DNA from: a bacterium
Lineage (GTDB): Bacteria; Patescibacteria; ABY1; BM507; VMTK01
Assembly (NCBI GenBank): GCA_030641105.1
Contig: DAOWHZ010000055.1
Span: 1 to 6,367 of the forward strand
Direction: 5' to 3'
DNA: 6,367 nt
A program made the translations under genes and the position numbers. The notes under the pieces were generated by a model, which saw only the letters and a program-made list of their open reading frames with translations, was not told where the DNA came from and ran no database searches. Shown here piece after piece: positions 2,099 to 6,367 of the stretch (position 1 is its first letter; every line of letters starts with the position of its first letter).

Positions 2099-3094
2099 AT
2101 GCAAAACAATAATAATAAAACTCAAAACAACAAACCTGATTCTGCAAAAACCGAGCGGCAGCTTGCCAAGGAAGTTGAGCAGTATAAAGATGTTGAAGGT
2201 CTGACAACTAAAAAATTAAATTTTGGCTTGTGGTATGTTGAACATCGGCAATTTTTTAAAAAAATAATAATTGCTTGTTTAATTGTTGTATCAGCGGTTT
2301 CTTGGTCATATACTCTTTATGGCTTGGCTTATTATGTTGTTCGCGGTATGAATGAGGATGAATTATTAGTTAGACAATTACTCCAGACTAATATTGTCAG
2401 CCATGATTATTTAACGCAAATCGGAGCTCAAGATTTAAGACATTTTCCAGTTAATGTTTTAATATCCACTAAAGATAAGTATGATTTAGCTGTCTGTGTG
2501 CAAAATATTAATGAGAGATGGTATGCTGAATTTGATTATTATTTTTTAGTTGGCGGTGAAAAAATCGGTCTGGCTCATAGTTTTATTCTGCCAATGGAAG
2601 AAAAATATTTAATGGCGTTGTCGCAAGAATTTGGAAGGCGAGACGCCGGCGTCTCGCCTTCCAAACCGAATAATGTTCAATTAGTAATAGAAAATTTGAG
2701 TTGGAGCAGAATTAACCGGCATAAAATTCCTGATTGGCAGGATTATAAAAATAGTTATTTAAATATTATAGTTGAGGATGCAAAATTTATTTCAGCCAGC
2801 AAAAGCAAACTATCAGAGAAAATTAACTTAAATCAAGTAGATTTTAAAGCCATAAATAAAACCGCGTATAATTATTGGCAAGTTGATTTTCAAATAGTGC
2901 TTTTTAGAGGCATGGACGTTATTGGTATTAATAAAATTAGTTTAAATGAGTTTATGTCTGGCCAAAAACGTTCAGTTGAAATTCGTTGGCCAGGCAAGAT
3001 TGGCCGGGTTGGCAAAGTAGAGGTAATGCCGGAATTAAATATTATGAGAGATGATATTTATATAAAATATGAAGGAGTGGTTGGAGAAGAATAA
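2099..3094 (+). CDS. unknown single-pass membrane protein with two FxLYD-like beta domains
   Basis: I do not recognise this 331-residue protein. Residues 1-53 are polar (Asn/Lys/Gln-rich) and presumably cytoplasmic; 55-82 form one hydrophobic helix preceded by KK, so the remainder should be outside. The exterior looks like two copies of one beta-rich unit. Copy 1 (about 115-205) has N136, then W141-YAEFDYYFLVGG, then an LPMEEK turn. Copy 2 (about 220-315) has N253, then W260-QVDFQIVLFRG, then a MSGQK turn. The pattern (an Asn turn, an aromatic strand, a Gly, then a strand after a charged turn) resembles the FxLYD/DUF3426 type of extracellular domain; this is inference. A 36-base perfect palindrome adds residues 178-189 in a turn of copy 1. 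The start is ATG 2099, preceded only by a weak purine run. A role in the envelope is suggested by topology and by rodA downstream, but the 182-base gap does not prove an operon. Confidence 0.85.
   Translation: MQNNNNKTQNNKPDSAKTERQLAKEVEQYKDVEGLTTKKLNFGLWYVEHRQFFKKIIIACLIVVSAVSWSYTLYGLAYYVVRGMNEDELLVRQLLQTNIVSHDYLTQIGAQDLRHFPVNVLISTKDKYDLAVCVQNINERWYAEFDYYFLVGGEKIGLAHSFILPMEEKYLMALSQEFGRRDAGVSPSKPNNVQLVIENLSWSRINRHKIPDWQDYKNSYLNIIVEDAKFISASKSKLSEKINLNQVDFKAINKTAYNYWQVDFQIVLFRGMDVIGINKISLNEFMSGQKRSVEIRWPGKIGRVGKVEVMPELNIMRDDIYIKYEGVVGEE
2630..2665. repeat. 36-base perfect palindrome inside a coding sequence
   Basis: Positions 2630-2665 read identically on both strands with no mismatch and no loop (centre GCCGGC, between 2647 and 2648). 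The segment holds 22 G or C of 36, in a gene that is otherwise strongly AT-rich. It fills exactly 12 codons in phase 0 and encodes FGRRDAGVSPSK (residues 178-189) in a predicted loop. This is what an in-frame palindromic element insertion would look like. Confidence 0.95.
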
Positions 3095-4383: not shown

Positions 4384-4392
4384 TTTTTTCAA

Positions 4393-4608
4393 GACAGCTA
4401 GTAAATAGACAGCTAGACAGATAGAAGCATTCATAGTACCTGATATTCTGATTAACTGGCATCCTCTCCCTGATTACCTTGATCAACTGGTATCCTTAAA
4501 GATTATCAGGCAATCAGTTAAACAGGGAAAGGATGTCGGGATATCAGTATACCAGGGATATTTTAAAATCTCTTATAGTTATTTATTTACTAGTTGTCTA
4601 GTTGTCTA
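4393..4608. repeat. large nested imperfect palindrome filling the rodA-L25 gap
   Basis: The outer arms 4393-4407 and 4584-4598 are complementary at 14 of 15 positions and continue with iterated GACAGCTAG / CTAGTTGTC words (4406-4424 against 4590-4608, 16 of 19). Within them, 4439-4556 forms a second imperfect palindrome whose best-conserved arm is 4460-4472 against 4523-4535 (12 of 13). The inner left half contains a direct repeat, GATTAACTGGCATCCT (4450-4465) and GATCAACTGGTATCCT (4481-4496), 14 of 16 identical. The centre is near 4497. The right edge stops six bases before the L25 ATG, so a folded transcript would place a long stem just ahead of that start. No T-run follows. Confidence 0.8.
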
Positions 4609-4613
4609 AATTT

Positions 4614-5303
4614 ATGAACGAAATAAAACTAAGCGTATTATCAAGGAGTGAAAAAAATGGTAAAACAAAAAAAATACGAGCTGATGGTTTTGTGCCAGTA
4701 GTTATTTATGGCTCAGGAGCCAAAACCCGCAGTTTAAAAGTTAAGCAACTTAATTTTGAGCGTGTTTTTGAATTGGCTGGTGAATCTAATCTAATTAATT
4801 TAATAATTGACAAGGAAGAGCCGGTTAAAGTTATTATTAAGGATATTCAGAGAGATGTAATCAAGGGGAACGTCATACATGTCGATTTTTATCAGGTTGA
4901 TATGAGCAAGAAGATTACTACTGAAATTCCTTTAAATTTAATTGGCGAATCTAAAGCTGAATTTGAATTAGGCGGAACTTTAATGAAGAATATGGATAGT
5001 GTTGAAGTTTCATGCTTGCCGGGTGATTTAGTTGACCATATTGATATTGATTTGTCAAAACTGGAAAATTTTGGTGATGCAATTAGAGTGGCTGATTTGG
5101 CTTTACCATCGGGCATGGCAGTAATTAGCGAGCCAGATGAAGTTGTTGCAAACGTAATTGAGCCGCGGGAAGAAGCTGAAGAAGAAAAACCAAAAGAAGA
5201 AGAAGCCGAGGAAAAAGAAAAAGTTGCTGAAACAGAGGAAGGTAAAAAAGAGGCAGTGAAAGAAGAAAAGGGTAGCGGGAAGGAAGAGGAGAAAAAGAAA
5301 TAA
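4614..5303 (+). CDS. rplY: 50S ribosomal protein L25, CTC/TL5 form with long charged tail
   Basis: L25 binds 5S rRNA in the central protuberance of the large ribosomal subunit. Counting from ATG 4614 it has 229 residues. Residues 1-92 match the 5S-binding beta-barrel domain: the opening LSRSEKNGKTKKIRADGFVP and VIYG, then VKVIIKDIQRD and VIHVDFYQVD. Residues about 98-184 match the TL5/CTC C-terminal domain: ITTEIPLNLIGES, GGTLMKNMDSVEVSCLPGDL, IDIDLSKLENFGDAI and the closing ISEPDEVVANVIEP. Residues 185-229 are a disordered tail made almost only of Glu, Lys and Ala, common as a variable tail in long-form L25. I chose ATG 4614 over the in-frame TTG 4602, which lies inside the palindrome arm and would add four residues ahead of the conserved start. 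No Shine-Dalgarno sequence is visible. The stop is 11 bases before the DUF3048 gene, suggesting cotranscription. Confidence 0.95.
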   Translation: MNEIKLSVLSRSEKNGKTKKIRADGFVPVVIYGSGAKTRSLKVKQLNFERVFELAGESNLINLIIDKEEPVKVIIKDIQRDVIKGNVIHVDFYQVDMSKKITTEIPLNLIGESKAEFELGGTLMKNMDSVEVSCLPGDLVDHIDIDLSKLENFGDAIRVADLALPSGMAVISEPDEVVANVIEPREEAEEEKPKEEEAEEKEKVAETEEGKKEAVKEEKGSGKEEEKKK

Positions 5304-5314
5304 TTATTATAACA

Positions 5315-6367
5315 ATGAATAAAAATAAAATTACAAGAAAATTTTGGATAATAATCGGCATTATTTTTATTATTTTGTCTATTGTTTTAGGGTTTATTGC
5401 TTATTATTTTGCAGCTGAATTTTATCCAGCTATTTTTGGTAAACCAAACATTGTTAAGCTGGGTTTTAAAACCCAGCTTAACAATGTTTGTCCTGATTGC
5501 GTTCGCCGTAGCATTGACGGGGTTTATGTAGAAAAGGGCAAGGAAAATCCATATCCAATAGCTATAATTATTGAGAATCATATTGATGCCCGTCCGCCTT
5601 CAGGATTAGCGCAGGCTAGTTTAGTTTTTGAAGCTGAAGCTGAGGGAGGCATAACCAGATTCTTGGCAATTTTTGCCAAAGGGCAAAACTTGGAAGAAAT
5701 CGGTCCGGTTAGAAGCGTAAGGCCTTATTTTGTTGATTGGGCGCGGGAATTTTCAGCTGTACTTGTTCATTGCGGCGGCAGCCCCTCAAGCTTGGTTAAA
5801 ATTGTTCAGGACAATGTTTTTAGTTTAAATGAATTTTATAACAGCGGTTATTATTGGCGGAGTGGAAAAAGGTCTGGACCGCATAATGTTTATACTTCAA
5901 CCGAAAATTTGGAAAAATATTTAAACAGCAAAGGGTTAAAAGAAGGCAAATATTTAAGCTGGCAGTTTAAAGATGATACCTCACCCCCAGCCCCTCTCCT
6001 AGAACAGGAGAGAGGAGATAGCGAAAACAATAAATCAAAAATTACAATTAATTTTAAGCCGCCTGATTATGTTGTGGAATGGATTTATGACAGAGAAGAT
6101 AATGATTATATTCGTTATTTGGCAGGGCAAAGGCATAAAGACATTGACGGAGAAGAAATCAGGGCTAAAAATATTGTGATCGCGATTATTGATGCTGAAG
6201 TGATTGATGATGAACTGCGATTAAAAATGTATCATATTGGCGAGGGTGAGGCAGTAGTTTGCAGGGATGGTAAATGCACGGAAGGAACATGGCAAAAAAA
6301 ATCAAGTTCAGCACGAACTCGATTTTATAAAGAAACTGGCGAGGAGTTTAAATTTAATGCTGGGACA
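5315..6367 (+). CDS. DUF3048 (YerB-type) membrane-anchored protein, partial at the C-terminus
   Basis: 351 codons are present and open to the right edge. Residues 11-34 form one hydrophobic anchor; the rest should be extracytoplasmic. The DUF3048 core is clear: PIAIIIENHIDARPPSGLAQ (81-100), VFEAEAEGGITRFLAIF (104-120), GPVRSVRPYF (130-139), VHCGGSP (151-157). The C-terminal DUF3048 part includes VVCRDGKCTEGTWQKK (314-329) and TRFYKETGEEFKFNAG (335-350). By comparison with the family only some 15-25 residues are missing. B. subtilis YerB is the named relative; the biochemical role of the family is unknown. Two segments look inserted: residues 44-59 from a perfect 46-base palindrome between anchor and domain, and residues 222-236 from a C-rich hairpin element between the two DUF3048 parts. 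Cysteines C59/C62 (CPDC) and C316/C321 form two close pairs. It follows L25 by 11 bases without a recognisable Shine-Dalgarno sequence at proper spacing. Confidence 0.92.
   Translation, partial: MNKNKITRKFWIIIGIIFIILSIVLGFIAYYFAAEFYPAIFGKPNIVKLGFKTQLNNVCPDCVRRSIDGVYVEKGKENPYPIAIIIENHIDARPPSGLAQASLVFEAEAEGGITRFLAIFAKGQNLEEIGPVRSVRPYFVDWAREFSAVLVHCGGSPSSLVKIVQDNVFSLNEFYNSGYYWRSGKRSGPHNVYTSTENLEKYLNSKGLKEGKYLSWQFKDDTSPPAPLLEQERGDSENNKSKITINFKPPDYVVEWIYDREDNDYIRYLAGQRHKDIDGEEIRAKNIVIAIIDAEVIDDELRLKMYHIGEGEAVVCRDGKCTEGTWQKKSSSARTRFYKETGEEFKFNAGT
5445..5490. repeat. 46-base perfect palindrome inside the DUF3048 gene
   Basis: Positions 5445-5490 equal their own reverse complement without a mismatch or loop (centre TTTTAAAA, between 5467 and 5468). 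The reading frame stays open and the segment encodes residues 44-59, from PNIVKLGF to LNNVC, lying between the membrane anchor and the DUF3048 domain. It shares no obvious sequence with the palindrome at 2630-2665, so it would belong to another repeat family. Confidence 0.96.
5978..6015. repeat. C-rich hairpin element inserted in frame in the DUF3048 gene
   Basis: The stretch begins CCTCACCCCCAGCCC and carries a perfect 7-bp stem CTCTCCT (5994-6000) / AGGAGAG (6006-6012) with loop AGAAC. It encodes SPPAPLLEQERGDS-type sequence (residues 222-236), low-complexity and Pro-rich, unlike the AT-rich codons on both sides. From memory, similar C-rich CCCCCAGCCCCTCTCC strings recur as dispersed repeats in several bacterial groups; I could not check this. 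Confidence 0.7.

Follow-up and report, generated by a model that had tools for sequence, protein, structure and literature searches.

How does a perfect palindrome of 46 nt come to lie, in frame, inside a protein-coding gene of a member of the Patescibacteria? To our knowledge, Rickettsia and Wolbachia are the main groups in which palindromic repeats that code for protein have been described, and the mover of such repeats is unsettled. The window that we analyzed (the whole stretch of 6,367 nt) contains a gyrB-like gene and genes for a hypothetical protein, FtsW/RodA, an L25/TL5-type ribosomal protein, and a DUF3048 protein, the last of which holds the palindrome. Here we ask whether this palindrome is peculiar to its gene or has relatives elsewhere, and which process could have produced it.

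A perfect palindrome in the linker of a DUF3048 protein

The host protein has Pfam matches to DUF3048 (1.2e-42; residues 72 to 208) and DUF3048_C (9.3e-22). The arms of the palindrome, CAAACATTGTTAAGCTGGGTTTT|AAAACCCAGCTTAACAATGTTTG, meet with zero spacer at a position between a hydrophobic N-terminal stretch, judged by eye, and the DUF3048 domain, and the reading frame remains open throughout (Table 1). The initial annotation had described the palindrome as perfect, loopless, in frame, and situated in the linker. A check of sequence and frame agreed with this description, with the palindrome falling in residues 44 to 59 and the DUF3048 match beginning at residue 72. When loops of up to 8 nt were scanned, no other perfect palindrome in the window was as long, the next being that at 2630 to 2665. 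The annotation had also considered a chance origin unlikely, and two estimates concur: from base composition we expect fewer than 1e-8 such palindromes per 6.4 kb, and 689 kb of a relative's genome contains 25 loopless palindromes whose arms span 11 nt or more, compared to 0 in one first-order (dinucleotide) resampling. Nine of these 25 lie within stop-to-stop frames of at least 120 amino acids, not all of which are necessarily genes. Folded as single-stranded DNA, the 46-mer reaches -22.7 kcal/mol (z = -10.8). It is composed of a conserved 30-nt core and a copy-specific extension of 8 nt on each side, a structure that the initial annotation had overlooked. The window also contains two long imperfect intergenic inverted repeats, at 1541 to 1656 (49-nt arms, 76% complementary) and at 4392 to 4599 (24-nt arms, 83% complementary).

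TABLE 1 Palindromes and associated features of the window
Feature	Position	Strand	Description
Second in-frame perfect palindrome	2630..2665		18+18 nt; GAAGGCGA-N12-TCGCCTTC family, 28-nt core at 2634-2661
DUF3048 protein gene	5315..6367	+	Host of the palindrome; 351 codons, leaves the window at its end; identified by Pfam
Perfect loopless palindrome	5445..5490		23+23 nt; within residues 44-59 (P NIVKLGFKTQLNNV C)
Left copy-specific extension	5445..5452		8 nt, complementary to 5483-5490; flank permutation
Conserved 30-nt core	5453..5482		GTTAAGCTGGGTTTTAAAACCCAGCTTAAC; AGC subtype of the dispersed family; 2 further copies in G001 contig C42
Right copy-specific extension	5483..5490		8 nt, complementary to 5445-5452; flank permutation
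Imperfect inverted repeat	5991..6015		CCCCTCTCCT-AGAAC-AGGAGAGAGG; same DUF3048 gene, codes for about PLLEQERG

The host protein has 2394 homologues at E ≤0.001, and among the 120 listed, all named organisms are Patescibacteria, for example, Falkowbacteria. P0001, a 94% identical protein from a separate record that is known here as protein alone, has the same linker residues as the window protein. The two proteins are identical over approximately the first 180 residues and have many differences later, as if recombined or chimeric. The closest orthologues without the insert (P0002, P0003, P0026, and P0004; 73 to 82% identical) have linkers that are unrelated in sequence and, counted by eye, 3 to 5 residues longer than that of the window protein. 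The proposal that residues 44 to 59 would simply be missing from orthologues therefore fails as worded, and these linkers suggest instead that the element replaced linker sequence here or arrived with a deletion. A protein search with the insert region yielded, from 4 candidates, P0001 and P0003 alone. A DUF3048 profile search, from which 50 loci were fetched, gave the highest identity (59%) for L014 of Candidatus Falkowbacteria isolate S3_17 (genome G001), and L014 itself holds a palindrome similar to that in the window.

The core of the palindrome is dispersed in related genomes

The 30-nt core, GTTANNNTGGGTTTTAAAACCCANNNTAAC, occurs in 13 copies in G001, the closest relative found (up to 3 mismatches), and a reversed-pattern control gave 0. 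The NNN of the core is GGA in 5 of these copies, GCT in 5, and AGC in 3, and the opposite arm is matched every time; in one AGC copy, the adjoining pair is also changed on both sides. A 26-nt form of the core (up to 1 mismatch) was present in 6 of 380 genomes of the class, many of which are probably incomplete, and the exact form was found in 1 of 379 genomes in a wider sample of the phylum, namely, G001 itself. The inner 14-mer has 33 copies over the six genomes (13, 9, 7, 2, 1, and 1), and these, together with the window copy, make up the 34 copies studied here. The element has no spacer and measures 30 nt as a core, 46 nt in the window, and at most 86 nt with extensions. The exact 42-mer of the window palindrome had 0 matches in the genome contigs searched, and its 24-mer and 19-mer pieces, as well as a 30-mer of the 2630-2665 palindrome, had 0 matches in viral contigs.

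Copies deep inside genes share one reading frame

Fourteen of the 34 copies overlap no frame of 120 amino acids, 7 reach only into a frame's start region (with fewer than 35 codons ahead of the center), and 13 lie well inside frames (at least 35 codons on both sides). Two frames of the core, A and B, are open, and the third has stops. All 13 copies deep in frames are read in frame A (GFKT), with LGFKT in 12, and 0 are read in frame B (VLKP), which by our arithmetic is a 1-in-8192 outcome if A and B are equally likely. Frame A is the less hydrophobic (mean Kyte-Doolittle values for two variants of -0.1 and -0.7, compared to +0.8 and +0.9 for frame B), so selection after insertion would be a simple reason for this bias. 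In the start-region group, 4 of 7 copies are in frame B, and 6 of the 7 frames have no upstream ATG.

An NCBIfam scan covering 9 of the 13 in-frame hosts and the start-region copy L117 identified TopA (topoisomerase I), GlyA (serine hydroxymethyltransferase), [FeFe]-hydrogenase, a nucleotidyltransferase, and NrnA-like, ComEC-like, and ComEA/nuclease-like proteins, while 3 of the 10 gave no match. The initial annotation had placed the palindrome in a linker where extra residues are harmless. This view is too narrow: other copies of the family lie inside conserved enzymes. Alignment to solved structures placed the insert at an 11-residue gap in GlyA (12 with a second structure), a 9-residue gap in the [FeFe]-hydrogenase, and gaps of 3+5 residues in the nucleotidyltransferase; in TopA, the gaps are scattered. 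Comparison with orthologues of GlyA (G040) and TopA (G381) indicated, by eye, a net gain of approximately 7 to 8 residues, which is shorter than the element and points either to loss of part of the host sequence or to loops that differed beforehand. In the window gene, TopA, and GlyA, the net change is either a gain of less than the element's length or a loss, so these sites do not document a clean insertion. A search for empty sites in family members (3 genomes for GlyA and 2 for TopA) gave orthologues 73 to 78% identical, too distant for an exact boundary, and no two closely related genomes were found that differ by the presence of the insert at a given site. In G128, the same loop of GlyA carries a different, longer insert.

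The two arms mostly change together

Core pairs 1 to 7 are invariant as a result of how the copies were gathered. Pairs 9, 10, and 11 do vary, each with 3 to 4 base types, and are complementary in 33, 31, and 31 of the 34 copies, counts that are uncorrected for kinship of the copies. Complementarity at the outer core pairs 12 to 15 falls to just 31, 30, 25, and 23 of 34, with losses mainly in G165 and G305, which we read as decay.

Pairing extends past the core. Among the 20 copies with an intact core, a copy's own flanks pair over 6.3 further positions on average, compared to 1.0 for exchanged flanks; for the 13 intact-core copies of G001 and the window, the values are 5.4 and 1.7 (P of approximately 5e-5 for both sets, the floor of 20,000 permutations). 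An extension is lacking in eight of the 20 copies, of which five are in G165 and G305 and three in G001. Several extensions in G001 are T-tracts and may belong to the element, whereas those of the window, TopA, and ComEC-like copies differ.

Copies in G304 have arms of 42 to 43 nt. At loci L206 to L225 of this genome, the same outer arms (AACTAAGTACCTACGATTT) surround at least four different cores, including that of the window family, and thus form mosaic palindromes. Either cores were exchanged or inserted at the dyad center or one arm was rewritten from the other.

A mobile-like element as the probable origin of the palindrome

A conserved core that is dispersed, its residence in enzymes, a single frame deep in genes, mostly matched changes in the arms, and copy-specific flanks that are complementary together support the interpretation that the window palindrome represents a single copy of a mobile-like palindromic element, short and non-autonomous, which in Patescibacteria occurs within and between genes. 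We assign this interpretation a probability of approximately 0.78. The element would move as a single-stranded hairpin. Copies landing in the less hydrophobic of its two open frames, which encodes about VxLGFKTQxN, would be those that survive. Template switching at the hairpin could re-equalize the arms and could copy flanking bases across, which would explain the 8-nt extension of the window copy.

Alternatively, the palindrome might be a miniature inverted-repeat element (MITE) of a DD(E/D) insertion sequence, with two terminal inverted repeats joined head to head. A loopless palindrome could represent such repeats without an interior, and the long arms in G304 would suit this origin. However, the mosaics of G304, with the same outer arms around different cores, speak against it. 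Moreover, a half-site search for an insertion sequence with these ends found, by our count, 15 half-sites beyond the 33 copies in the six genomes, compared to 16 matches for the reversed control, the sole excess being in G001 (3 unpaired half-sites versus 0). We therefore consider a MITE unlikely. Local template switching (quasipalindrome correction), in which host sequence formed one arm and served as the template for the other with no mobile element involved, agrees with the 8 outermost nucleotides and with the symmetry of the changes and has precedents in E. coli and in yeast coding genes, according to excerpts of PMC7202029 and PMC8604942, respectively. It cannot put the same 30-nt core into unrelated genes and genomes, and the dispersed copies contradict it for the core. 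As the whole explanation, it is distinctly unlikely; as a secondary process acting on the element, it is likely.

The palindrome could instead be no selfish element but a conserved DNA site with a cellular function, such as a binding site, terminator, or uptake signal. Roles as binding sites or terminators are typical of long palindromes, and the 14 copies outside long open frames would fit this role. Yet positive genomes have just 1 to 13 copies, 374 of the 380 class genomes (many probably incomplete) have no match, and copies lie inside conserved enzyme genes. In addition, no terminator-like site was found at 5300 to 5700, and the window has no Rfam match at the gathering score. We see little chance that a functional site accounts for the family. 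Finally, although palindromes can arise as chimera products, an assembly or library fold-back artifact is very unlikely, because the same core recurs in several assemblies at unrelated places, the subfamilies have matched changes, and P0001 has the same linker residues.

Further palindrome families in coding sequence

The proposal in the initial annotation that there are several families of coding-tolerant palindromes was borne out, as the palindrome at 2630 to 2665 belongs to the separate GAAGGCGA-N12-TCGCCTTC family. The insert comprises 8 residues in the window protein and in P0121 to P0123; of the 30 proteins aligned, the remaining 26 show a clean gap in its place, which in two of them spans 9 residues. 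In P0121, K and L replace the R and P of the window protein, as a matched change in both arms would, in our reading, lead one to expect; the residues of P0123 at the insert appear to us incompatible with a perfect palindrome. P0123 and P0125, both homologues of the protein encoded at 2099 to 3094, contain another Ser/Pro/Gly-rich insert at a different place. The GAAGGCGA-N12-TCGCCTTC pattern occurs 17 times, in 4 of the 144 genomes, with 0 for the reversed control. By our count, N12 is self-complementary in 15 of the 17 copies and has 10 different sequences; the chance of self-complementarity is 1 in 4096 for each.

The imperfect inverted repeat downstream in the DUF3048 gene resembles, by eye, CCCCTCTCCTAATTAGGAGAGGGG of G001, and several aligned relatives do not have these residues. 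Palindromes of a further family, the GGAGCTNAGCTCC-GAAG type with a small hairpin in each arm, were seen at L003 1910-1943, L006 19712-19749, and L016 11532-11597. This type lies in open frames, for example, the DUF3048 gene of L003 and a 318-amino-acid frame of L016 that has a methyltransferase-like motif.

RAYT-type transposases are candidate movers

After palindromes had been noticed in two Y1/RAYT (PF01797) frames, L102 and L235 (the latter presumably such a frame), we examined frames of this type. In a first set, for which several source genomes had been chosen for having palindromes, 13 of 29 RAYT frames carry one (arm of at least 10 nt, loop of at most 6 nt); as controls, 80 neighboring frames (56.2 kb) carry 1, and 602 G001 frames (708 kb, both strands) carry 45. 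A second set from other genomes consisted of listed frames of approximately 160 to 290 amino acids with matches weaker than 1e-15, scanned for arms of at least 10 nt and loops of at most 4 nt. Of 60 frames hand-picked without regard to palindromes, 21 carry one, compared to 0.9 in shuffles; the remaining 33 listed frames, of which one with an internal stop is missing, gave 6 of 32. Pooled, 27 of 92 RAYT frames among the matches listed (L286 to L378) have an internal palindrome, with the caveat that homologous transposases are not independent. The density is approximately fivefold higher in RAYT frames (32 palindromes in 56.0 kb, or 0.57/kb) than in 276 neighboring frames (15 in 141.5 kb, or 0.11/kb). 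Other palindrome-bearing RAYT/Y1 frames are L239, L242, L245, L246, L248, L250, L252, L253, and L254, as well as L102. In 17 of the 27 frames, the palindrome lies at residues 90 to 140, and where HxH was found ahead of it, it follows HxH by 13 to 69 residues; exceptions are L354, in which it precedes HxH, and two frames with no HxH by the search string used. Some other RAYT palindromes coincide with the ends of frames and might simply be flanking repeats of the ordinary kind.

In G055 and G013, 3 of 11 GAAGGCGA-family copies lie in RAYT frames. The inner 14-mer of the window's family is absent from all RAYT loci fetched. The single RAYT-like match in G001 is on a 3.4-kb contig, approximately 2 kb from a core copy, the only one there, and G165 (approximately 0.7 Mb) has 9 core copies and no RAYT match. 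At L138 1914-4015, a RAYT gene of G305 has three palindromes in and around it, of the GACACTAAGTGTC-loop-inverse type, in a classical REP arrangement; these were rejected as copies of the window's family because they belong to another family. A core-like match near a RAYT gene in L294 was also rejected, being coding sequence of the neighboring gene.

Because RAYT genes of the same class carry palindromes, some of them of sister families, in frame more often than neighboring genes do, a RAYT-type HUH/Y1 transposase would be the likely mover of the window's family. We also put forward, tentatively and with the odds against it, that Patescibacteria may have a self-tagged system of their own. RAYT genes with an in-frame palindrome, often soon after the HUH motif, would spread palindromes of the same family as peptide-coding inserts; the arms would be re-copied in each round, so that the inside drifts yet stays paired, and the window palindrome would be a product of this system.

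Relationship to known palindromic elements

In our best reading, the window's family works in the manner of both Rickettsia palindromic elements (RPEs) and REPINs. RPEs are characterized in excerpts of PMC10969869 and PMC2229807 as dispersed, in frame in unrelated conserved genes, encoding a family peptide, present as several families per genome, and approximately 105 to 150 bp in size with long stem-loops; PMC2229807 cites by title a report on such elements in Wolbachia. The window's family is likewise dispersed in unrelated genes and intergenic regions, in frame, and with a conserved peptide (13/13 in one frame). Unlike RPEs, which we compared by description only, it is 30 to 86 nt long, loopless, often perfect, and found in an unrelated phylum. 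It works like an RPE, but because length and loop do not agree and RPEs are known here by description, we do not file it as a member.

In the portions of PMC3116915, PMC3733652, and PMC8266576 consulted, REPs and REPINs are short palindromes that are regarded as mobile, show compensatory changes in the hairpin, and have ties to HUH/Y1 transposases. Compensatory changes also maintain the hairpin here, at pairs 9 to 11 of the window's family and in N12 of the sister family. REPINs are described as extragenic and REPs as lying beside the RAYT gene (PMC3116915, in part), although some REPs occur inside genes and flanking repeats may overlap the ends of the transposase gene (PMC3733652, the latter in section 16). 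Whereas REPs are mostly extragenic and flank RAYT genes, the palindromes reported here are inside the frames of RAYT and other proteins, and the excerpts of these three descriptions mention no internal palindromes in RAYT frames. The unpaired GTAG/CGTC tag of REPs is also absent: the window core starts with GTTA, and both ends are paired in intact copies. Some sister palindromes do start with GTAG, which is paired too. In the mitochondria of Nematomorpha, functional coding genes contain long, perfect inverted repeats, according to an excerpt of PMC6649704. There, both arms encode conserved host regions, whereas the element described here brings a peptide of its own and is found again in unrelated genes.

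Among the matches listed from the open-licence literature, we recognized no account of such elements in Patescibacteria. The present families place several kinds of much shorter, nearly symmetric coding palindromes in core enzymes of a large, streamlined bacterial group. They offer a testable system for asking how selfish hairpins can invade proteins while the cell survives and how the two arms of a palindrome stay matched. They also come with a candidate for the transposase, which has a link to a sister family of the window's palindrome, and a RAYT gene carrying GTTANNNTGGGTTTTAAAACCCA would tie the window's own family to a RAYT mover.
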